Of a stretch of 33,852 nucleotides of DNA, positions 6,676 through 21,660 are shown piece by piece. This DNA comes from Ignisphaera sp. (GTDB taxonomy: Archaea; Thermoproteota; Thermoprotei_A; Sulfolobales; Ignisphaeraceae), in NCBI GenBank assembly GCA_028275825.1, contig JAPWTX010000018.1:1-33852 (forward strand). The letters are read 5' to 3'. The translations under genes were made by a program, and so were the position numbers. The notes below the pieces were generated by a model. It was not told where the DNA came from, searched no databases, and saw only the letters and a list, made by a program, of their open reading frames with translations. Each line of letters begins with the position of its first letter. Within the stretch, counting starts at the first letter, position 1.

Positions 6676-6789
6676 GGCGCATCACACAATTCAACAAAGC
6701 ATATATGACTAAAGCCTTCTACCTACAGCTGTCTGTCAAATAACTCATCATACCCCCTAACACCTCCTCACTATAGAGACCTAACCACC

Positions 6790-6954
6790 TAGCGCGATGA
6801 GCCACTCACCAAGACCTGTAATTACCTGTGAATAGCTGTAGATACTTAGTGAGCGGCTCATCACACTACCCCCAAGCCCACTCACCGCAGAAGCTCAAGC
6901 CCCTGCCGCCAGAGGCTTCAAAGCCCTGCGGGCCTCGGAAACTCGGGGACACCG
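6790..6954 (-). ncRNA. solo copy of the TnpB-associated structured element (copy A)
   Basis: Two arms of 24 nt (6790-6813 and 6845-6868) form a long hairpin; its four plus-strand mismatches are all G-U in a minus-strand RNA. The 31-nt loop contains three tandem 10-mers (CTGTAATTAC, CTGTGAATAG, CTGTAGATAC). Next to it lies the core shared with copy B: CCCCAAG (6870-6876) with CTCGGGG (6942-6948), CCGCAG (6885-6890) with CTGCGG (6926-6931), and an apical hairpin AGCCCCT/AGAGGCT whose sequence differs from copy B although pairing is kept. A palindromic TTTATAAA at 6977-6984 would start minus-strand transcription near 6954, just outside the core. No tnpB follows. RNA identity and strand are inference. 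Confidence 0.5.
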
Positions 6955-7031
6955 TTAAGTATGTAAATCTCTTTGGTTTATAAATCTTGTAGAGGCTCAG
7001 CACTTCTGTTGACAGCCCTTAAAATCACTAC

Positions 7032-7163
7032 AGTTCTCGGAAACCCAAGGACGTTATAAAATTACAACCTCCTAAAGCTTAAAAACCTTCTTGAGCTATG
7101 ACATTATAGAACACAAAGCTTTACAACTGAAAGCTTGCTATTTATGGTGGGGAGGAGATCAGA
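7032..7163 (+). mobile_element. remnant or miniature IS: partial left end plus right end, no gene
   Basis: At 7036-7090 a partial left end recurs (TCTCGGAAACCC, then GTTATAAAATT and CTTCTTGAG), similar to the segment upstream of tnpB at 12483-12545. At 7120-7163 a good right-end signature follows (TTTACAACTGAAAGCTTGC, then GGTGGGGAGGAGATCAG). With about 30 bp between them this looks like an internally deleted, MITE-like derivative. It may be two unrelated scars that happen to be adjacent. Confidence 0.4.
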
Positions 7164-7268
7164 GATGTCTCAAATCTATTCAGAATGATGATAACCCTGC
7201 TTCGAGTTCTATGCTGCTAAAAGCCTTAGCACGTCATTTCAAACTTCATACAGCTTCACAATAGCTGC

Positions 7269-9458: not shown

Positions 9459-9851
9459 TTATTCTGCTCTGAGCTTTACAAGAGCATTGCCTTCCCTTAC
9501 AAAAGACCCTCTCACAACATAGACCTTTTCAACAATGCCCCTCCTTGGACTTGTAATCTCGATCTCCATTTTCATGGACTCCACAATAGCTATTAGATCT
9601 CCTTCGTTTATAGCGTCCCCCTCCTTCACAAAGACCTCAACAACCCTTCCAGGCACTTCAGATGTAACTATAACCTCTTGCTTTCCACTAGCTTCTTTCG
9701 GCAACCTTGCTGCAAAAACTCCTTTAGGCGTCATCTCCACTATATATTCTCTCTCACCTATCTTAACTCTAAATACACTCTCTCTTTCCACAGCTATCAA
9801 CACTTCTATATCTCTGTCTTTTTCTCTAACAACGACCTTTTGCCACTGCAT
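9459..9851 (-). CDS. biotin carboxyl carrier protein (biotinyl domain)
   Basis: A 130-residue protein. Residues 1-60 form a beta-rich lead segment, and residues 62-130 are a biotinyl/lipoyl domain with the hallmark ESMKMEIEI, in which Lys94 would carry biotin attached by biotin protein ligase. It shuttles CO2 between active sites in acyl-CoA carboxylases or from a carboxyltransferase in decarboxylases. It is divergent from the carboxyltransferase gene at 9972 and shares a mirror-image promoter with it, so the two are very likely subunits of one complex. No biotin carboxylase gene is present nearby. A ribosome-binding AGAGGT lies before the ATG at 9851. Confidence 0.93.
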   Translation of the reverse strand: MQWQKVVVREKDRDIEVLIAVERESVFRVKIGEREYIVEMTPKGVFAARLPKEASGKQEVIVTSEVPGRVVEVFVKEGDAINEGDLIAIVESMKMEIEITSPRRGIVEKVYVVRGSFVREGNALVKLRAE

Positions 9852-9885
9852 TTATTCAAAAACCTCTTGCAGATTTTGCGACAGC

Positions 9886-9949
9886 TATAGCGATAAATAA
9901 GGCTTCTGCTTGCATGTTGATGAGAGCATAACTCTTATTTATCGCTATA
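9886..9949. promoter_or_regulatory. mirror-symmetric divergent promoter of the carboxylase genes
   Basis: TATAGCGATAAATAAG (9886-9901) and CTTATTTATCGCTATA (9934-9949) are a perfect 16-bp inverted repeat with a 32-bp spacer. Each arm contains an A/T-rich core at the expected TATA distance: the right arm lies 23-38 bp before the ATG at 9972, and the left arm 35-50 bp before the ATG of the biotin carrier at 9851. The identical arms suggest equal expression of the two subunits, or a regulator that binds both promoters. Confidence 0.65.
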
Positions 9950-9971
9950 TTGTTACATACCTGGGATTTTT

Positions 9972-11540
9972 ATGAATGGTGTGAGGAGAGAGATTGAGGA
10001 GCTGAGGAGAGTTGTTGAAGAGGCGAAGCTTGGAGGTGGGGTGGAAGCTATAGGTAGACAGCACTCATCAGGGAAACTAACAGCTAGGGAGAGGCTAGAA
10101 CTTCTATTTGATGATGGGAAGTATACTGAATTCGACATGCTTGTCACGCACAGAGCAACGGAATTTGGTATGAGTGAGAAGAAGGCTTATGGCGATGGTG
10201 TTGTAACAGCCTTTGGCAGGGTTAGTGGTCGGAATGTTGTTGGCATTGCACAGGACTTTACATTCATGGGGGGATCTGTTGGGGAGATGCATGCTGCTAA
10301 GATAGTGAAGGCAATGCAGTTCGCTTTAAGTGTTGGTGTACCCGTTGTATTCTTGAATGATTCTGGTGGTGCTAGGATACAGGAGGGTGTAGATTCTTTA
10401 AAAGGTTATGGAGAGATATTCCACATGAATGTTACAGCCTCTGGGTCAATACCTCAAATAGCTGTGATAATGGGTCCTTGTGCTGGTGGTGCTGTGTATT
10501 CCCCAGCCCTCATGGACTTTATAATAATGGTTTCAAAAACTTCTTACATGTTCATAACAGGGCCCAGGGTGGTGAAAGTGGCTATAGGTGAGGAGGTGAC
10601 AGAGTATGAGCTTGGAGGAGCAGAAGTTCAAGCAAGTAGAAGTGGGGTAGCACATTTTGTTGCTGGGGACGATAGAGAGGCTATAGAGATTGTGAAGAGG
10701 CTCCTATCCTATTTGCCTTCAAACAGCTTAGAACTGCCGCCAAGGGTTGAAACAGGTGATGACCCCTATAGGGAGGAACCCTACTTAGATAATGTGATTC
10801 CTGAAGACACAGCAAAGCCTTATAACATGTATGAAATAATCCTGAGGATTGTGGATAGAGATACATTTCTCGAGGTTCAAAAAGATTTCGCTAAAAACGC
10901 TATAGTAGGCTTTGCGAGACTCGATGGCTACACAGTCTGTGTTGTTGCAAACAACCCCCTTTACTACATGGGATCCCTGGACATAGACTCTTCAGATAAG
11001 ATAGCTAGGTTTGTGAGATTCTGCGACTCTTTCAACATACCAATAGTCACATTTGTTGATGTACCTGGCTTTGTGCCAGGAACTTTTCAGGAGCACAGGG
11101 GGATAATAAGACATGGTGCGAAGATAATATATGCCTATGCAGAGGCTACAGTACCAAAGCTTACAGTAATTGTGAGAAAAGCATATGGAGGGGCATACAT
11201 AGCCCTTGGATCCAAACACCTAGGAGCAGACTTTGTAATGGCATGGCCAACAGCTGAAATAGCTGTAATGGGCCCTGAAGCAGCTGCAGAAATAGTATGG
11301 AGAAAAGAGTTGCAAGCCATTAAGAATGAAAATGAGAGGACAGAACTCTTGAAGAAACTAGCTGAGGAATATAGAAGGAGACTAACAACACCTTACTATG
11401 CAGCATCTAGAGGATATATAGATGCTGTTATAGAACCTTCACAAACGAGAAAAACACTTGTTGAAGCACTGCACCTATTCATAACCAAGAGGGAGATAAG
11501 GGCAAGACCACCGAAGAAACATGGCCTAATACCCCTCTAA
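9972..11540 (+). CDS. acyl-CoA carboxylase carboxyltransferase subunit (propionyl-CoA carboxylase beta / methylmalonyl-CoA decarboxylase alpha type)
   Basis: A 522-residue protein with the full two-domain crotonase-fold layout of this family. It has the N-terminal signature RQHSSGKLTARERLELLFD, the N-domain oxyanion region NDSGGARIQEGVDSLKGYG and GPCAGGAVYSPALMDFI, and the C-domain VDVPGFVPGTFQEH, RKAYGGAYIALGSKHLGAD and MGPEAAAEIVW. It transfers carboxyl between biotin and an acyl-CoA such as propionyl- or acetyl-CoA. Its partner is the divergent biotin carrier. Archaeal carboxylases also need a biotin carboxylase, absent here; the same subunit works in sodium-pumping methylmalonyl-CoA decarboxylase, whose membrane subunit is also absent. 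The direction of the reaction is therefore open. Confidence 0.93.
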   Translation: MNGVRREIEELRRVVEEAKLGGGVEAIGRQHSSGKLTARERLELLFDDGKYTEFDMLVTHRATEFGMSEKKAYGDGVVTAFGRVSGRNVVGIAQDFTFMGGSVGEMHAAKIVKAMQFALSVGVPVVFLNDSGGARIQEGVDSLKGYGEIFHMNVTASGSIPQIAVIMGPCAGGAVYSPALMDFIIMVSKTSYMFITGPRVVKVAIGEEVTEYELGGAEVQASRSGVAHFVAGDDREAIEIVKRLLSYLPSNSLELPPRVETGDDPYREEPYLDNVIPEDTAKPYNMYEIILRIVDRDTFLEVQKDFAKNAIVGFARLDGYTVCVVANNPLYYMGSLDIDSSDKIARFVRFCDSFNIPIVTFVDVPGFVPGTFQEHRGIIRHGAKIIYAYAEATVPKLTVIVRKAYGGAYIALGSKHLGADFVMAWPTAEIAVMGPEAAAEIVWRKELQAIKNENERTELLKKLAEEYRRRLTTPYYAASRGYIDAVIEPSQTRKTLVEALHLFITKREIRARPPKKHGLIPL

Positions 11541-12292: not shown

Positions 12293-12339
12293 TAGGTCTG
12301 AATAGACATAGGTATTTACTTGATGCTTCAGCTGTATAC
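12289..12339 (+). pseudogene. vapC: 5' part of split vapC (pair 2)
   Basis: Starting at the GTG that overlaps the antitoxin stop, 17 codons read MIGLNRHRYLLDASAVY, the standard N-terminus of a PIN-domain VapC with the first catalytic Asp in LLDASA. After the Tyr codon at 12337-12339 the frame runs into the left end of the tnpB element and stops at 12460-12462. The rest of the toxin is found at 13685-14059. Joining Tyr (12337-12339) to Pro (13685-13687) is in frame and gives a VapC of about 141 residues, normal for the family. Confidence 0.8.
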
Positions 12340-12504
12340 CGTTTCTCGGTAGATAGTGGTTCACAGCCTCTCATATCTATTGATTTCAAGGCTCTCCACC
12401 ATCTACTTCTCAACGGTCTCCCCAAGCCCCCTCACCGCAGAAGCTCATCGCTAGTTGCCTAGCGATTCATAGCCCTGCGGGTCTCGGAAACTCGGGGTCA
12501 CTGA
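12339..12504 (-). ncRNA. TnpB-associated structured element, putative divergent ncRNA (copy B)
   Basis: A boundary hairpin pairs 12339-12359 with 12396-12416 (CCGTT/AACGG, then GTAGATAGTGG with CCACCATCTAC, plus AGCC/GGCT inside). The core follows: CCCCAAG (12420-12426) with CTCGGGG (12491-12497), CCGCAG (12435-12440) with CTGCGG (12475-12480), and an apical hairpin TCGCTA/TAGCGA (12448-12453, 12460-12465). Copy A has the same layout with different apical and boundary stems. The helix mismatches become G-U pairs on the minus strand. The TATA at 12527-12533 would start a minus-strand RNA near 12504, about 166 nt long, ending at the element boundary. Structure is seen; transcription and strand are inferred. 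Confidence 0.5.
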
Positions 12505-12508
12505 TACG

Positions 12509-12533
12509 TTTATAAGCTTCTGAAGCTTATAAA
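12509..12533. promoter_or_regulatory. perfect 25-bp palindrome with two TATA boxes upstream of tnpB
   Basis: TTTATAAGCTTC (12509-12520) and GAAGCTTATAAA (12522-12533) are perfectly inverted around one T. Each arm carries a TATA box. The right one lies 22-28 bp before the ATG of tnpB at 12555 and suits a leaderless transcript. Read on the opposite strand it would fire toward the structured element. It may act as a bidirectional promoter or a repressor site. Confidence 0.55.
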
Positions 12534-12554
12534 TTTTCTTGAGGGATTCCCCAA

Positions 12555-13646
12555 ATGACTTACATAACGCTCACGTTTCCGTTTAATGTTTGTTGTGATG
12601 TTGCGAAGAGGTTTTTGTCTACTGCATGGCTGTTCAAGATTGCTACACATAAGCTTCTTAGTGTTGCTAAGCAGTCTCCTGTTCTCCCAGGTACTGATAT
12701 TGGCTGGAAGAACACCTTTAGAAAGATTGTCTATGAGGTTATTTCTAATAGGAGGTATGCTGATGGTGTAATCATGCTTGTTAGAAGTGTTTATGAGTCT
12801 TGTAGGCAACTCGGAGTAGATTTTAGAAGTGTTGAGTTATCTGATTGGCTAATGTTTCAGCAGAGCGAGTTGGAATACCCAGCAAAAAGCATTACTCTCA
12901 AACCGAGTTACGAGTTCCACATAACAACAGCGGACTACAGCAAGAATAGCTATAGAGATGTTGTAAAGCCTATAGTACCAAAGAGCTACAGGCTTCTGCT
13001 AGAAAAGATTTTGGAGGAGAGGCAGAGGTACGCAGGTAGAGTAGCTATAAAGAGCTACGGCATTAGAAAAGATAGTCTGTGGATTCGTGGAGAAGTGCAG
13101 ATAACGATACCGATAGACTTCTACTACAAGCACATGGCAAGACGCAGAGAACCTAAAGGCAGTCTCATAGGCGGTATAGATGTAAATGTAGATAGGCTAA
13201 ACCTAGCAGTAATTGATGAGAAAGGAAACTTGCGGGACTGCAAAACCTTCTGGTTCTCAGAGGCAACGACTAGAGGGTTTTCAAGGAGGAGTGCTAAAAG
13301 CATTATAGGTGCGAAGATTCGTGAAATGCTTAGCTATGCCTATCATCACAACATTAAAACATTGTTTTTAGAGAACCCAGGTGTTCTAGGAAAGCTAAAG
13401 CTCCTATGGGTTAGGAACGGCGATAGAAAGCACGAGAACTACAACTACAAGAAAGCTGTTTTCAGAAGCTCTGTCATTGAGATGATAGCGTTGAAAACAC
13501 CACTATACGGCATAGAAGCTAAATACGTAGACCCAAAGGGGACAACAAGCTCTAGAGAGCATGACGAAATCATGAAGAGATATGGGCTAGACAGACATGC
13601 CGCATCAGCATACCTAATAGCATTAAGAGGTCTTAGAAATCAATGA
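12555..13646 (+). CDS. tnpB: TnpB / IS605 OrfB-family RuvC-like nuclease without zinc finger
   Basis: A 363-residue protein. The N-terminal 200 residues correspond to the RNA-binding half of TnpB. The RuvC-like nuclease has Asp209 in IGGIDVNVDRLNLAVI, Glu273 in TLFLENPGVLGKLKLLW and Asp346 in YGLDRHAASAYLIAL, so all three catalytic acidic residues are present. The CxxC...CxxC zinc finger usual between RuvC-II and RuvC-III is missing; only GTTSSREHDE occupies the place. TnpB proteins are RNA-guided DNA nucleases that cut the donor site after excision and so maintain the element. The gene stands alone, without tnpA. The ATG at 12555 follows a TATA box at about 25 bp. The stop overlaps the next ORF by 4 bp. 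Confidence 0.88.
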   Translation: MTYITLTFPFNVCCDVAKRFLSTAWLFKIATHKLLSVAKQSPVLPGTDIGWKNTFRKIVYEVISNRRYADGVIMLVRSVYESCRQLGVDFRSVELSDWLMFQQSELEYPAKSITLKPSYEFHITTADYSKNSYRDVVKPIVPKSYRLLLEKILEERQRYAGRVAIKSYGIRKDSLWIRGEVQITIPIDFYYKHMARRREPKGSLIGGIDVNVDRLNLAVIDEKGNLRDCKTFWFSEATTRGFSRRSAKSIIGAKIREMLSYAYHHNIKTLFLENPGVLGKLKLLWVRNGDRKHENYNYKKAVFRSSVIEMIALKTPLYGIEAKYVDPKGTTSSREHDEIMKRYGLDRHAASAYLIALRGLRNQ

Positions 13647-13684
13647 ATATGAACACTACAAATGATTATGAAGACCAAAACAGC
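13629..13684 (+). repeat. right end of the tnpB element
   Basis: GGTCTT (13629-13634), within the last codons of tnpB, pairs with AAGACC (13671-13676). Between them lies ATATGAACACTACAAATGAT (13648-13667), which recurs with two changes at 21742-21761 downstream of the second, decayed tnpB. This repetition supports assignment as an element terminus. Confidence 0.5.
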
Positions 13685-14059
13685 CCCCTAATACTTAACC
13701 TAAGGGAGAGGATCATAAAATTCAAGGATTTCTTTGTCATACTAGATCTAACCATTTATGAGATTGGTAATGCTATATGGAAAGACTATAGAAGAGGTAG
13801 GATTTCAAATCCTATTGTTGTTGCAAGGCTCTTTATTGAGGTATTGAAGGAGTTAAAGAGGTTAAGTATAGGTAGTAATGAAATTACTGATGTTCTGCAG
13901 ATCGCTATTGAGAATAATTTAACTTTTTATGACGCTTCTTATCTCTATGTAGTCAAGAGATATGGATTAAAGATCGTTACACAAGATCAAGATTTACTGA
14001 AATTTCCCGAGGCAATAAGTGTTGAAGATCTAATCAAAATTTTTAGTACAGAAAAGTAG
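13643..14059 (+). pseudogene. vapC: 3' part of split vapC, now fused to insertion-sequence sequence
   Basis: Codons 15-138 of this frame are a PIN domain without its beginning: PLILNLRERIIKFKDFFVIL, then DLTIYEIGNAIWKDYRRGRI with the conserved Glu, then NNLTFYDASYLYVVKRYGLK and IVTQDQDLL with the conserved Asp residues. The first 14 codons come from the right end of the tnpB element, and the ATG overlaps the tnpB stop (ATGA). The first catalytic Asp and first strand are missing, so a protein translated from here should be an inactive toxin, though it might still bind antitoxin. It matches the N-terminal piece at 12289-12339 in frame. Confidence 0.8.
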
Positions 14060-16816: not shown

Positions 16817-19300
16817 CTATGAAGCGAGGTCTTCAACGGATAGATAACAGCCCTTAGCCACCTCTACAAAAGCTCCTTGTGGGGGTTCGAAGGAGATTTT
16901 CGAAACCTTGTGGAGGTTCGTAATGTCCTTTGCAAATATTTTCAGCTCTTGTGGCAGGTATAGCGTTGCCTTCAATGGCTGTGAGAATCTGATGTTATGC
17001 TCCTTCTTAAACTTCCATAAACCGCTATTAATGCTGATTAGTGTTTCAAGGTGTTTCTCTAGAACACTTGCCTCTTCTGGCAGAGGTATTTTATCTGGTA
17101 AAGATTCTCTATGTATAGAGGTATTTTTATAAAGCTTTCTCCATATATAATCAGTCACAAAAGGCATTACTGGTGCAAGCAAGAGTAGAACTGTTTTAAC
17201 CACCTTGTGAAGTGTGTAAAGAGCGCTTCTCTGTTCCCACTCGCTGTAGCTGCCAGAGGTGTTATATAGCCTTGGCTTCACCATCTCTATATAATGATCT
17301 GCAAACACATCCCATATGAAGTGGTAAAGTGTTTGAGCTGGTTCATAGAAGTCCATGCCTTCATAACCTCTCCTAACAACCTCTATAACATTGTTTAGTC
17401 TAGAGAGAATAGCAATGTCGAGTGGGTAGAGTTTTTCAATATCCTCAACTAGTGGAAATGAAGAAACAAACCTAGCTATATTCAGAAGCTTTGTAACGAA
17501 TAGAGCTCCAGTTCTAATCAATTGCTCTGAAAACCTATAATCGCTACCCAGCTTTGCTGAAACAGCTGACCAGAACCTAAATGCATCAGCTCCATACTTC
17601 TCTATATATGGATCGGGCAAGACTATGTTACCTTTGCTCTTATGCATAGCTTCCCCCTTCTCATCCAAGCCCATGCCACTAACCCTTACAAAGTCAAAGG
17701 CGATCTTATTATAGAGTTGGTAAACCCTTAGAAGCGAGTAATAAAGCCAAGTCCTTATGATGTCATACCCCTGAGGTCTCAACGCCTTGGCTTCGCCCCC
17801 TAAATACAATTTAAAGACCTGAGGATACTTTGTTATGCCAGCAGCATATAGCACTGATATAGATGAATCGAACCAAGTGTCAAAAACCTTCGTCTCCCCA
17901 ACAATATTCTCCTTTGGAGCTCCACACACAGGGCATTTATCCCATGGCGGTGCATCTCTCCAGGGTCTGTAATATTTTCCTGGCTGAGGAACTAGAATAG
18001 AGTTGCACCTAGAACATCTCCAAACAGGAACTTCAGTAGCATAGTACCTGCTCTTTGATATCGGCCAATCCATTGAGATAGACTCTATCCAATTCAGTAA
18101 CCTAGCCCTATGCTCCTCTGGCAAAAACCTTAGCTCTCCAGCGACCCTCTTCATATCCTCCTTAAACTCCAGCTGCTTTAGGAAAAACTCCTTCACATGA
18201 ATGAACTCAATAGATGTGCCACAACGCCAACACACAGGTATATTCCTCCGTATCTTTTCAATTCTAGTCAAATAACCCTGGGAGGTGAGAAGCTCAACAA
18301 TTCTTCTCCTAGCTTCTTTCACTGTAAGACCCTTTAGAACATCATCAATCATTTTACCATCTTCATCTATAACTATTTGCGGCTTTAATCCAAGCTCTCT
18401 AATTACCTTCACATCCATTTGATCACCATAGCTACATATCATCATAATTCCTGTGCCAAAGGATGGGTCCACAGATTGGTGCTCAATTATCTCGACTTCG
18501 CGGTTGTACACAGGTACGATAGCTTTCTGACCTTTGAGGTGCTTGTACCTCTCATCACCTGGATTGTAAGCAAGCACAAGGCAAGAGGCTAGCAGTTCTG
18601 GTCTTGTTGTTGCTATGGTAACCTCCCCCTTCGCATCTTTCAATAGGAATTTTATGTAGTAAAGCTCTGCATCCTCCTCCCTATACTCCACCTCAGCCTC
18701 GGCCAATGAAGTCCTACACCTAGGGCACCATATAACAGGTCTCTCAGCCTCATATATCATCCCTCTCCTCCACAGATCAATGAATGTTGACTGAGTGATT
18801 CTTCTATACTCTTCACTATCTGTACCACTCTCCCAGTACTCAAATGAGCATCCCAGAGCTCTCCATAGAGCTATGAACTCCTTTTCTACAGAATCTAAAT
18901 GCCTTTTGCAGAGCTCAAGAAACTTTTCCCTACCTTCAGAAGTCTTAGCAATATGGTGTGGGTTTATGCCATAAGTTCTCTCTACAAAAACTTCAACTGG
19001 TAGCCCATTTCTATCCCCATAGAAAGGCACGAGAACATTGTAACCAAGCATTCTATATGCCCTTGCAATCATGTCTATCTGGATGTAGTGCGCTACCTGC
19101 CCCACATGAGGCTTTCCAGATATGTATGGCGGTGGAGTATCTATAATCAATGTGGGTTTAGATGGGTTAAAAACAAATCTATTTAGACCCTCTCTTTCCC
19201 ATACCTCTACAAGCTCTTTCTCAATTTCCCTACGCCATCTAGTCTCCTCCAGCTTAGGCTTAAACAGCAGTTGTTCAGACTCTATAGTGTAGCACCTCAT
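16817..19300 (-). CDS. valS: valine--tRNA ligase
   Basis: Charges tRNA-Val with valine in the cytoplasm. Class I signatures are present: DTPPPYISGKPHVGQ near residue 60-70 (the HIGH-type motif) and MHKSKGN (the KMSKS-type loop). WCPRC and WRCGTS are Zn-binding-like pairs, and the CP1 editing domain has IATTRPELLASC, the conserved editing-site TTRPE. The C-terminal anticodon-binding helices complete the ~827 residues. The ATG at 19300 is preceded by AGAGGT at a good distance; a TTG just before it is the alternative start. Confidence 0.96.
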   Translation of the reverse strand: MRCYTIESEQLLFKPKLEETRWRREIEKELVEVWEREGLNRFVFNPSKPTLIIDTPPPYISGKPHVGQVAHYIQIDMIARAYRMLGYNVLVPFYGDRNGLPVEVFVERTYGINPHHIAKTSEGREKFLELCKRHLDSVEKEFIALWRALGCSFEYWESGTDSEEYRRITQSTFIDLWRRGMIYEAERPVIWCPRCRTSLAEAEVEYREEDAELYYIKFLLKDAKGEVTIATTRPELLASCLVLAYNPGDERYKHLKGQKAIVPVYNREVEIIEHQSVDPSFGTGIMMICSYGDQMDVKVIRELGLKPQIVIDEDGKMIDDVLKGLTVKEARRRIVELLTSQGYLTRIEKIRRNIPVCWRCGTSIEFIHVKEFFLKQLEFKEDMKRVAGELRFLPEEHRARLLNWIESISMDWPISKSRYYATEVPVWRCSRCNSILVPQPGKYYRPWRDAPPWDKCPVCGAPKENIVGETKVFDTWFDSSISVLYAAGITKYPQVFKLYLGGEAKALRPQGYDIIRTWLYYSLLRVYQLYNKIAFDFVRVSGMGLDEKGEAMHKSKGNIVLPDPYIEKYGADAFRFWSAVSAKLGSDYRFSEQLIRTGALFVTKLLNIARFVSSFPLVEDIEKLYPLDIAILSRLNNVIEVVRRGYEGMDFYEPAQTLYHFIWDVFADHYIEMVKPRLYNTSGSYSEWEQRSALYTLHKVVKTVLLLLAPVMPFVTDYIWRKLYKNTSIHRESLPDKIPLPEEASVLEKHLETLISINSGLWKFKKEHNIRFSQPLKATLYLPQELKIFAKDITNLHKVSKISFEPPQGAFVEVAKGCYLSVEDLAS

Positions 19301-19340
19301 CAAAAACCTCTAAGCTGTATTTGAGTTTCGTAGCATCAGA

Positions 19341-20683: not shown

Positions 20684-20953
20684 CTCTATAGAAACCCTTG
20701 GCAACTGTTTTAAGCTTCATGCGAGTTCGCACAGTTCTGCATGAACTGATTTTGATAAAAATTTGTAAAACGCGAGACACACACTCTTTAGAGCAGCAAG
20801 TAATGTACCCAAGATGTGGGGTTCCCCTGGGCACTTCTGAAAGCCCCCAAGGCATACGCAGATCCAAGGAGCTGTGTGAGGGAGAAGGAGATGAGGCTAT
20901 GACCCCATCAAGTTACATGAACCTATATGAGAGCTGAACCCCTGGTGGGTTTC
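20684..20953. other. gene-free stretch with possible transposase debris
   Basis: A frame over 20698-20937 contains YPRCGVPLGTSESPQG, which might be a worn zinc-finger piece of a tnpB gene (CPRCG), but no other TnpB motif supports it. The sequence is locally rich in GGGG and CCCC blocks. I see no intact gene. Confidence 0.2.
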
Positions 20954-21014
20954 CCCGAGGCAATCACTTGTAAATAGCTGTAATTAGTTGTGACTACATT
21001 TTCTTGCCCCGGGG
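20953..21014 (-). repeat. degenerate boundary hairpin of the TnpB-associated element (copy D)
   Basis: CCCCGAGGCAA (20953-20963) pairs with TTGCCCCGGGG (21004-21014) with one mismatch that is a G-U pair on the minus strand. The loop again holds three near-repeats of a 10-mer: TTGTAAATAG, CTGTAATTAG and TTGTGACTAC. The stem sequence is unrelated to copies A, B and C while the loop type is shared. The same CCCCGAGGCAA recurs at 21431-21441. Confidence 0.4.
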
Positions 21015-21226
21015 GTTCCCGGGCTCTGTTCGGCTCTTCATAGCATCACTACCCGGGCTATCAGGGCTTCACATAACCCTAGAGCCCCTCATCAGCTTCA
21101 GCCCCTCGCCCACACCTTGGGGGCAACCAGGGGTTGCCAAACCCTCATCGATATGTGTTCACAGGGGCTCTGAAGGTGTTAGGTGTTTGGCGCGGTTATA
21201 TTTTTAGGGGTTGGTGAAAGTGTTGT

Positions 21227-21322
21227 GTTGCTAGACCAATTCATCTAAAGCTATTCACAGATATTTACAGTTGATACGGATCCAGCTACGGCTCACAGCC
21301 CTACGGATCTCGGAAACCTGGG
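21227..21322 (-). repeat. degenerate TnpB-associated structured element (copy C)
   Basis: GTTGCTAGACC (21227-21237) pairs imperfectly with GGATCCAGCTAC (21278-21289). The loop holds the 10-mer triplet on the opposite strand compared with copies A and D (minus strand: CTGTAAATAT, CTGTGAATAG, CTTTAGATGA). Next to it AGCCCTACGGATCTCGGAAA matches the core of copies A and B (AGCCCTGCGG, CTCGGAAACT). It lies ~100 bp upstream of a tnpB fragment. A TATA-like TTTATAATC is at 21382-21390. Confidence 0.45.
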
Positions 21323-21417
21323 CTGTTTCGGTCTTCATAATCATTTGCAACACTTATTTTCATTGATGTTTAAGAGTTAGGTTTATAATCTCTGGTTCTG
21401 CTTAATTATTACAGCTG

Positions 21418-21660
21418 TTGATGAGGGGCGATGCCCCGAGGCAACTCAAATGCCCTAGATGTGGGTTTAGATCTGGCAGAGATGTAATAGCCGTGTTAAA
21501 CCTCGAGAAGAAGTATTTAACTCTCAAGGGGTGCGTGCCGTTCACCCCAATGCCCCGTGACCCTGCTCTGGAGGTAGCAGTGCTACCAATGAAGGGGTGG
21601 GCGAGGAGAAAGTCCCTAGATGCAACGAATAAACATGAACTAATGAGAATGAGCATCTAG
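21418..21660 (+). pseudogene. tnpB: C-terminal fragment of a zinc-finger-type tnpB
   Basis: Eighty codons encode only the end of a TnpB: LKCPRCGFRSGRDVIAVLNL, holding the second CxxC of the zinc finger and the last RuvC motif (GRDVIAVLN with its Asp), then the tail KGWARRKSLDATNKHELMRM. The rest of the gene is missing, so this is a remnant. Its C-terminus is of the zinc-finger type, unlike the intact TnpB at 12555, even though related termini flank both. A hairpin GGGGC-GAT-GCCCC (21423-21435) lies at its 5' edge. Confidence 0.8.

Follow-up and report, generated by a model that had tools for sequence, protein, structure and literature searches.

A 33,852-bp stretch of DNA from Ignisphaera sp. 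(contig JAPWTX010000018.1 of assembly GCA_028275825.1; this whole stretch is called the window below) contains two copies of a structured mobile element. Copy B carries a gene and copy A does not. The reading that we consider likely is that they belong to a family of non-autonomous, IS607-like transposons of Thermoproteota, with a divergent TnpB/Cas12f-like nuclease and a scaffold RNA that would take its guide from the flanking DNA, and that copy A is a solo member, probably inactive. The features of the two copies are as follows.

Positions 12338-13683: copy B, gene-bearing element of 1346 bp with B-type ends and GGG at its left end (the 3' end of the gene).
Positions 12555-13646, plus strand: divergent gene for a 363-amino-acid TnpB/Cas12f-like protein, RuvC triad D209-E273-D346 invariant in 18 aligned sequences.
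Positions 12338-12503, minus strand: noncoding RNA (ncRNA) of copy B, 166 nt, stopping exactly at the element end with the flank beyond.
Positions 12528-12533, minus strand: TATA box of the copy B ncRNA.
Positions 6792-7016, minus strand: copy A, gene-less (solo) element of about 224 bp with A-type ends and GC cores at about 6792-6793 and 7015-7016.
Positions 6791-6954, minus strand: ncRNA of copy A, 164 nt, consisting of a P1-P2-P3 5' domain and a 3' hairpin.
Positions 6977-6984, minus strand: TATA box that precedes the copy A ncRNA by 30 nt.
Positions 6816-6843: three 10-bp repeats in the 3' hairpin loop of copy A, a motif also dispersed across the genome.

The right boundary of copy A is uncertain by a few bases; its ends were compared with those of L002, L052, L056 and L198, other elements of the collection. 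The original prediction had taken copy A for a gene-free version of the element that flanks the gene at 12555-13646, which we confirmed. It had also placed the start of copy A near 6977-6984, giving about 165 nt. The TATA box lies there and the ncRNA is indeed 164 nt, but the unit runs on to about 7016.

The RNA was studied in 31 full-length copies, 10 from the same genome (copy A, copy B and eight others) and 21 from relatives. Single-sequence folds of all 31 gave one architecture, a 5' domain P1-P2-(P3) followed by a long 3' hairpin. With covariance model R1 the copy B ncRNA scored 112.4 bits and the 5' domain of copy A (6858-6954) 94.2 bits (E 4.7e-21). The two copies share the order and sizes of their helices as predicted, with 164 and 166 nt and the same P1-P2-P3 plus 3' hairpin. 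Their apical stems, read in RNA sense, are GCCTCTG/CAGGGGC in copy A and TCGCTAG/CTAGCGA in copy B, both paired, and the boundary hairpin likewise differs in sequence and retains its pairing in both, again as had been claimed. The junction beside the guide end fits a kink-turn consensus in 16 of 31 copies, a GAGAA internal loop in 12 and neither in three (copy A, L006 and L052), the classes being assigned by a regular expression that matched L056 at the wrong position, although this copy fits by eye. The kink-turn is thus not common to the whole family.

Covariation supports this structure. RNAalifold on a MAFFT alignment recovered only P1 and P2, with double changes at 12 of 16 pairs; the 3' base helix and P3 were added by hand, so that 29 pairs were scored. 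Over the 31 copies, 91.4% of 755 cells were paired compared with 77.7% after shuffling, double-change cells numbered 102 compared with 34, and the covariation score was 0.355 compared with 0.169, a value that none of 500 shuffles reached. When the structure was slid along the alignment, pairing dropped to 39-50%. The 17 gene-less copies alone were 94.8% paired and had 51 double-change cells versus 21.8 when shuffled (0/500); three of five measures exceeded all 500 shuffles, and the other two were reached by 11 and 7 of 500. Part of the covariation among gene-less copies may have been inherited from different gene-bearing parents. Alignment A2 omitted L042 (partly masked) and L048 (cut), A3 and A4 omitted L006, A4 additionally L054 and L055, and A5 omitted L172 (has the gene), L177 (identical to L176), L179 (inverted loop) and the A-type copies of this genome, which have another 3' hairpin.

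Both strands were folded. The energy of copy A was -90.9 kcal/mol on the minus strand and -59.5 on the plus strand, and that of copy B -80.7 and -60.1 kcal/mol. The minus-equivalent strand was the more stable in 28 of 31 copies (exceptions L010, L043 and L050; binomial p 5e-6, which treats the copies as unrelated). Cells with G-U exceeded those with A-C by 126 to 25 overall, by 48 to 12 in the copies of this genome and by 7 to 0 in copy A. The G-U bias to the minus strand reported in the original prediction therefore stands on our own count. Strand energies, covariation and the G-U count together show that a strand-specific folded molecule is real. The G-U bias tells which strand folds, not that the molecule is RNA, and hairpins of single-stranded DNA (ssDNA) would give the same bias as G-T.

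The promoter and the relatives of the RNA argue for RNA more than the G-U bias does. The motif YTTAWA begins 20 to 50 nt upstream of the ncRNA in 25 of 31 copies, copy A included, compared with 603 of 6200 shuffled sequences. Homologues of the Rfam family Sso133 (RF02814, Sulfolobus sRNA133) occur at three loci of sister proteins, in relatives that we read as Sulfolobaceae-like; at L155 and L156 the RNA is exactly divergent, upstream of a TnpB-like gene, and at L158 it lies upstream of a partial one. At six other sister loci (L140, L141, L142, L143, L144 and L154) a divergent RNA is weakly matched by models R1 or R2 (E 0.003-0.11), and at the remaining ones it was recognised by eye only. The hairpin CCGAG-GGGAG..CUCCC-GUAG of Sso133 is similar by eye. 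At the gathering threshold Rfam found only a tRNA in the window and no family for copy A or copy B; the Sso133 model matched neither copy, nor anything around copy A at E<=1, where the relaxed search gave only mir-3473 (E 0.55, far under its cutoff). Sso133 reportedly came from a library of L7Ae-bound RNAs. A 2017 paper on L7Ae RNA immunoprecipitation sequencing lists 21 small RNAs (sRNAs) of unknown function, and a word search of its available text found no transposon term (PMC5539422). A literature search on the names of Sso133 found nothing on the RNA among the papers listed.

These results bear on the idea that the structure is needed as ssDNA, as hairpins for a transposase like those of IS200/IS605, and that the RNA is incidental. 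The strand-biased G-T pairing would fit that idea equally well, and the last hairpin holds repeat arrays near the element end. We regard it as very unlikely, however: no Y1 transposase (PF01797) is found in this genome, the bulk of the covarying structure is remote from the end, the TATA box keeps its distance in 25 of 31 copies, sister loci carry an Rfam sRNA, and the GG and GC cores are as in serine-recombinase elements.

The gene of copy B encodes a protein whose predicted structure (mean pLDDT 84.8) matches Cas12f, Cas12k, TnpB and Fanzor2 along the full length. In structure comparison with end-to-end alignment, Cas12f gave Z 20.9, TnpB-omegaRNA (8h1j) 15.3, ISFba1 TnpB 14.4 and ISDra2 TnpB (8bf8) 14.1; the top 22 Foldseek matches were Cas12f, Cas12k and Fanzor2. 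A scan of genome contigs found 23 protein relatives, from Desulfurococcales, Caldivirga, Vulcanisaeta and other Thermoproteota records. Protein alignment A1 held 18 sequences and omitted L048, L050, L051, L053, L056 (frame broken) and L057. Sister proteins, some of them from genomes that we read as Sulfolobaceae-like, match TIGR01766 (TnpB-related; 1.4e-9, 3e-8 and 2.2e-7) and connect by sequence to TIGR01765 as well. Because of the invariant triad, the full-length fold and the sequence links through sister proteins, we place the window protein, by predicted fold and transitive links, in the TnpB/Cas12 superfamily as a divergent, minimal member. PADLOC gave no match for it, PHROGs only weak ones (E 0.012, unknown function; E 0.028, resolvase), and a sequence-profile search against PDB no useful match. 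A small open reading frame (ORF; like IYIPKE..HLHGKEV) was seen by eye ahead of several sister TnpB-like genes (L139-L156), and similar ORF ends precede dispersed 28-nt arrays.

The same kind of RNA stands divergently just upstream of the gene of about 363 codons in 22 of the 22 loci with readable upstream sequence, L048 being cut by its contig. A short palindrome (GGGGAATCCCC or like) lies between the divergent promoters, at about 12541-12552 in the window, in many gene-bearing elements (L035-L057); by eye it was not seen in gene-less ones. Divergent promoters within about 100 bp, with a palindrome between them in many gene-bearing copies, are what one might expect of an RNA that acts as a regulator or attenuator of the adjacent gene, or of a host sRNA captured by transposons. 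Such a role or origin is very improbable, since in every class the RNA stops at the element end, solo copies have no gene to regulate, and the locus of copy A is empty in congeners.

The ends of the elements point to mobility of the IS607 kind. Gene-bearing elements span 1290-1346 bp and hold a single gene; gene-less ones of this genome with both ends found span 224-267 bp. Read in RNA sense, each element opens with CTG or CAG adjoining GGG, and the left flank of GG-type elements has G in all 23 cases at -3 and -1 and in 21 of 23 at -2. The other end is AACGG-Y at the last base of the RNA base helix, and sequences beyond it are unrelated. In all element classes the ncRNA terminates exactly at this end, opposite the GGG-adjoining one, and its last hairpin has inverted subterminal repeats in the loop (by eye). 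There are two end classes, the B-type with GG cores and the A-type, which includes copy A, with GC cores and 10-bp CTGTRAWTA repeats. The A-type solo element L002 has inserted precisely into the apical loop of a B-type ncRNA; other B-type copies show this site without an insert, so the insertion was clean and only the 2-bp core is in common (by eye). A 2-bp core at both ends without other duplication, as in IS607, is thus seen by eye in L002, where it is GC; in B-type elements the core is GG. In the available text on IS607, crossover occurs at GG dinucleotides and the target-adjacent motif (TAM) of ISXfa1 TnpB is GGG (PMC10711439); the GGG beside the left end is a candidate TAM of the same kind. 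IS607 TnpA is described in an excerpt as binding phased 9-bp repeats near the ends (PMC6188088), and by likeness to those ends the loop repeats of copy A (6816-6843) are a putative transposase-binding array. In L179 (G036:C99) the last hairpin has an intact stem and a loop in the opposite orientation to that of sister copies, which could be the work of a recombinase acting on the stem.

Copy B has interrupted a PIN-domain gene.

Positions 13643-14059, plus strand: remainder of the PIN-domain (vapC-like) gene interrupted by copy B (PF01850, E 2.4e-6), whose start lies left of 12338 by eye.

A second element of the family, L198 (G052:C3), also interrupts a PIN-domain (vapC-like) gene (by eye).

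Among known systems, IS607 TnpB elements with their right-end element RNA (reRNA; ISFba1, ISXfa1) share with this family, as far as the available portions of their descriptions go, the GG core ends, the GGG/AG-rich left-end motif, phased repeats, the RuvC nuclease and an RNA terminating at the element end (PMC6188088, PMC11061315, PMC10711439). They differ in that their reRNA lies on the tnpB strand, downstream of the gene, whereas in this family the gene is turned round and the RNA has a promoter to itself, and our elements have no tnpA and no zinc finger that we could see. IS200/IS605 TnpB-omegaRNA systems have the same nuclease fold (8h1j, Z 15.3; 8bf8, Z 14.1) and the same logic of an RNA at the element end, but their omegaRNA overlaps the 3' end of tnpB in the text available (PMC12817955), and their Y1 transposase is absent from this genome. 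Cas12f, a type V-F CRISPR nuclease, is the nearest full-length fold (Z 20.9); our loci show no arrangement of array and trans-activating RNA (tracrRNA), and the RNA ends in the transposon flank. IS110 bridge-RNA elements also have an ncRNA in the element end adjoining a RuvC-type protein, but here the alignment to Cas12f/TnpB extends over the whole length with RuvC C-terminal; IS110 recombinases were not among the structure matches listed, from which no exclusion follows.

The TnpB/Cas12 fold with its RuvC D-E-D triad agrees with TnpB/OMEGA systems. A same-strand reRNA at the tnpB 3' end was not found, the RNA being divergent in 22 of 22 readable loci, and C-terminal zinc-finger cysteines were not found either, no cysteine being invariant in A1. 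As both the gene-RNA order and the zinc finger differ on testing from those of a canonical TnpB-reRNA element, we do not file the family as one, although by analogy it probably works in the same way. One locus, L139, has an ncRNA downstream on the same strand, which might be taken for the usual TnpB order; this was rejected, as the downstream copy is an independent solo element that has a left end of its own, and the L139 gene also has a divergent ncRNA. Among the papers listed by a search limited to open-access literature, none was seen to describe a divergent TnpB guide RNA, and from its sequence organisation the layout of the family, with an inverted gene and a guide-like RNA under its own promoter, looks new.

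In the mechanism that we propose, a scaffold RNA of about 130-165 nt would start from a TATA box of its own and be transcribed in the direction that leads away from the gene. As the RNA 3' end is the transposon end, the transcript would run into flanking DNA and the flank would become the guide. The divergently encoded nuclease would use this RNA, recognise GGG plus a guide match, that is, the empty donor site, and cut, and repair after the cut would restore or keep the element. The steps after transcription are modelled on TnpB biology as given in the accessible text of two papers (PMC11061315, PMC10711439). Gene-less copies would retain promoter, scaffold and both ends, would probably owe their movement to a transposase acting in trans, and a single nuclease could serve them in trans. 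Solo elements would be many because gene loss leaves guide, promoter and ends intact.

Gene-less copies are indeed numerous. In this genome R1 has 18 matches (E<=0.1) and the gene is present once in full, together with C-terminal scraps, and genome G036 has 13 RNA model matches and one full gene. Of 147 genomes of the order, 39 have the ncRNA (E<=1e-3), 44 a protein of the family or of its sisters (E<=1e-10) and 27 both; the protein is thus present in 27 of 39 genomes with the ncRNA versus 17 of 108 without it, genomes being counted as independent. Solo copies from G036 and G026 have differing flanks and mostly both ends (L171 and L191 have no clear left end; L176 equals L177). Being short and without a gene, and sharing both ends with a gene-bearing relative, copy A and the gene-less copies of this genome with both ends found are like miniature inverted-repeat transposable elements (MITEs).

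Several results weigh against the nuclease-guide reading. Twelve of the 39 ncRNA genomes have no protein at E 1e-10, for example G026 with 14 copies at 96% completeness, so that RNA elements persist without the nuclease; G091 likewise has 11 copies and no family protein at this threshold. The window protein has no Pfam or NCBIfam match at the thresholds used, and no zinc-finger cysteine is among the invariant columns of A1. No transposase gene, tnpA included, lies within the 1290-1346 bp elements; four serine-recombinase (PF00239) matches occur in the genome outside them. The similarity of the ends to those of the serine-recombinase elements of this genome is weak (L059 scored 38, shuffled 27.8, sd 2.9, max 39), and the L058 and L060 ends were no better than shuffled, so no particular transposase is tied to the element ends.

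The gene-less copies could be plain MITEs, spread by a transposase that recognises their ends, with a structure inherited and not selected. This would agree with the differing flanks and retained ends of solo copies, with the genomes that hold many copies but lack the family protein, and with the altered junction of copy A, but the pairing-keeping double changes in 17 solo copies lie above all 500 shuffles, even if part of them was possibly inherited, and the TATA spacing is conserved; we find it rather unlikely. A more far-reaching form of the nuclease-guide reading, which we put forward tentatively and hold to be less likely than not, is a dispersed guide set, in which about a dozen guide-RNA elements, each with a promoter and a mobility of its own, would serve one Cas12f-like nuclease in trans. 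Each guide would be aimed at its own empty insertion site and guide elements would spread independently, with the nuclease gene as just one member of the guide-RNA population and copy A as a dead one.

Copy A has its own history. Its flanking genes are adjacent in five congeners (G052, G068, G034, G098 and G024), with about 145-240 bp between them compared with about 680 bp here, and copy A is absent at the equivalent locus in all five. Because of this short intergenic stretch without it, copy A is an insertion of its own lineage. It hit an older RNA.

Positions 7017-7052, minus strand: 5' piece of an older, decayed ncRNA hit by the insertion of copy A.
Positions 6744-6791, minus strand: 3' piece of the same older ncRNA.

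When the flanks were joined they scored 76.3 (100 shuffles: mean 46.9, sd 5.7, max 67.0) and folded as P1-P2-P3; either side alone gave 41.0 and 43.9, and the wrong order 45.2. Copy A is therefore nested in an older, decayed relative. It keeps its promoter and 5' domain, and at the guide-proximal junction, where relatives have a kink-turn or GAGAA loop, it has a continuous duplex, which may have arisen by quasi-palindrome correction. Because this junction became a continuous duplex, copy A is probably decayed and inactive as a guide, to judge from its sequence. An action in trans, one of the two roles suggested originally, could apply to the RNA of the family at large but is doubtful for copy A for the same reason. 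The other role, a domesticated RNA or kept host gene, is not supported for copy A and is rejected on synteny, the locus being empty in the five congeners compared.

Other features were seen in the window. A 28-nt repeat array at 21243-21375 adjoins a fragment of the ncRNA that is joined to the left end of a B-type element (GGGCTGTTTCGGTC), and a short ORF after it (21418-21660) has a TnpB-like zinc-finger motif (by eye). At 20950-21030 there is a hairpin (CCCCGAGGCAA/TTGCCCCGGGG) whose loop has three 10-nt TGTAAATAG-like repeats, the loop motif of copy A. Another dispersed repeat, around GGGGAGGAGATCAGA, lies at 7114-7168, with more than a dozen matches in the genome and some in congeners. By eye, 9459-11540 and 16817-19303 hold ordinary genes, for biotin carrier and carboxyltransferase subunits and for a leucyl-tRNA synthetase-like protein.

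Copy A by itself is of little note. Known TnpB systems derive their guide RNA from the 3' end of the mRNA of the nuclease itself, which ties guide and gene together. Here guide and nuclease appear uncoupled: the RNA has its own promoter on the opposite strand, and gene-less guide elements outnumber genes. Such uncoupling would be a natural intermediate between the single guide of a transposon and separate guides as in CRISPR, and it may offer a partner and a reason for the orphan Sulfolobus sRNA Sso133.
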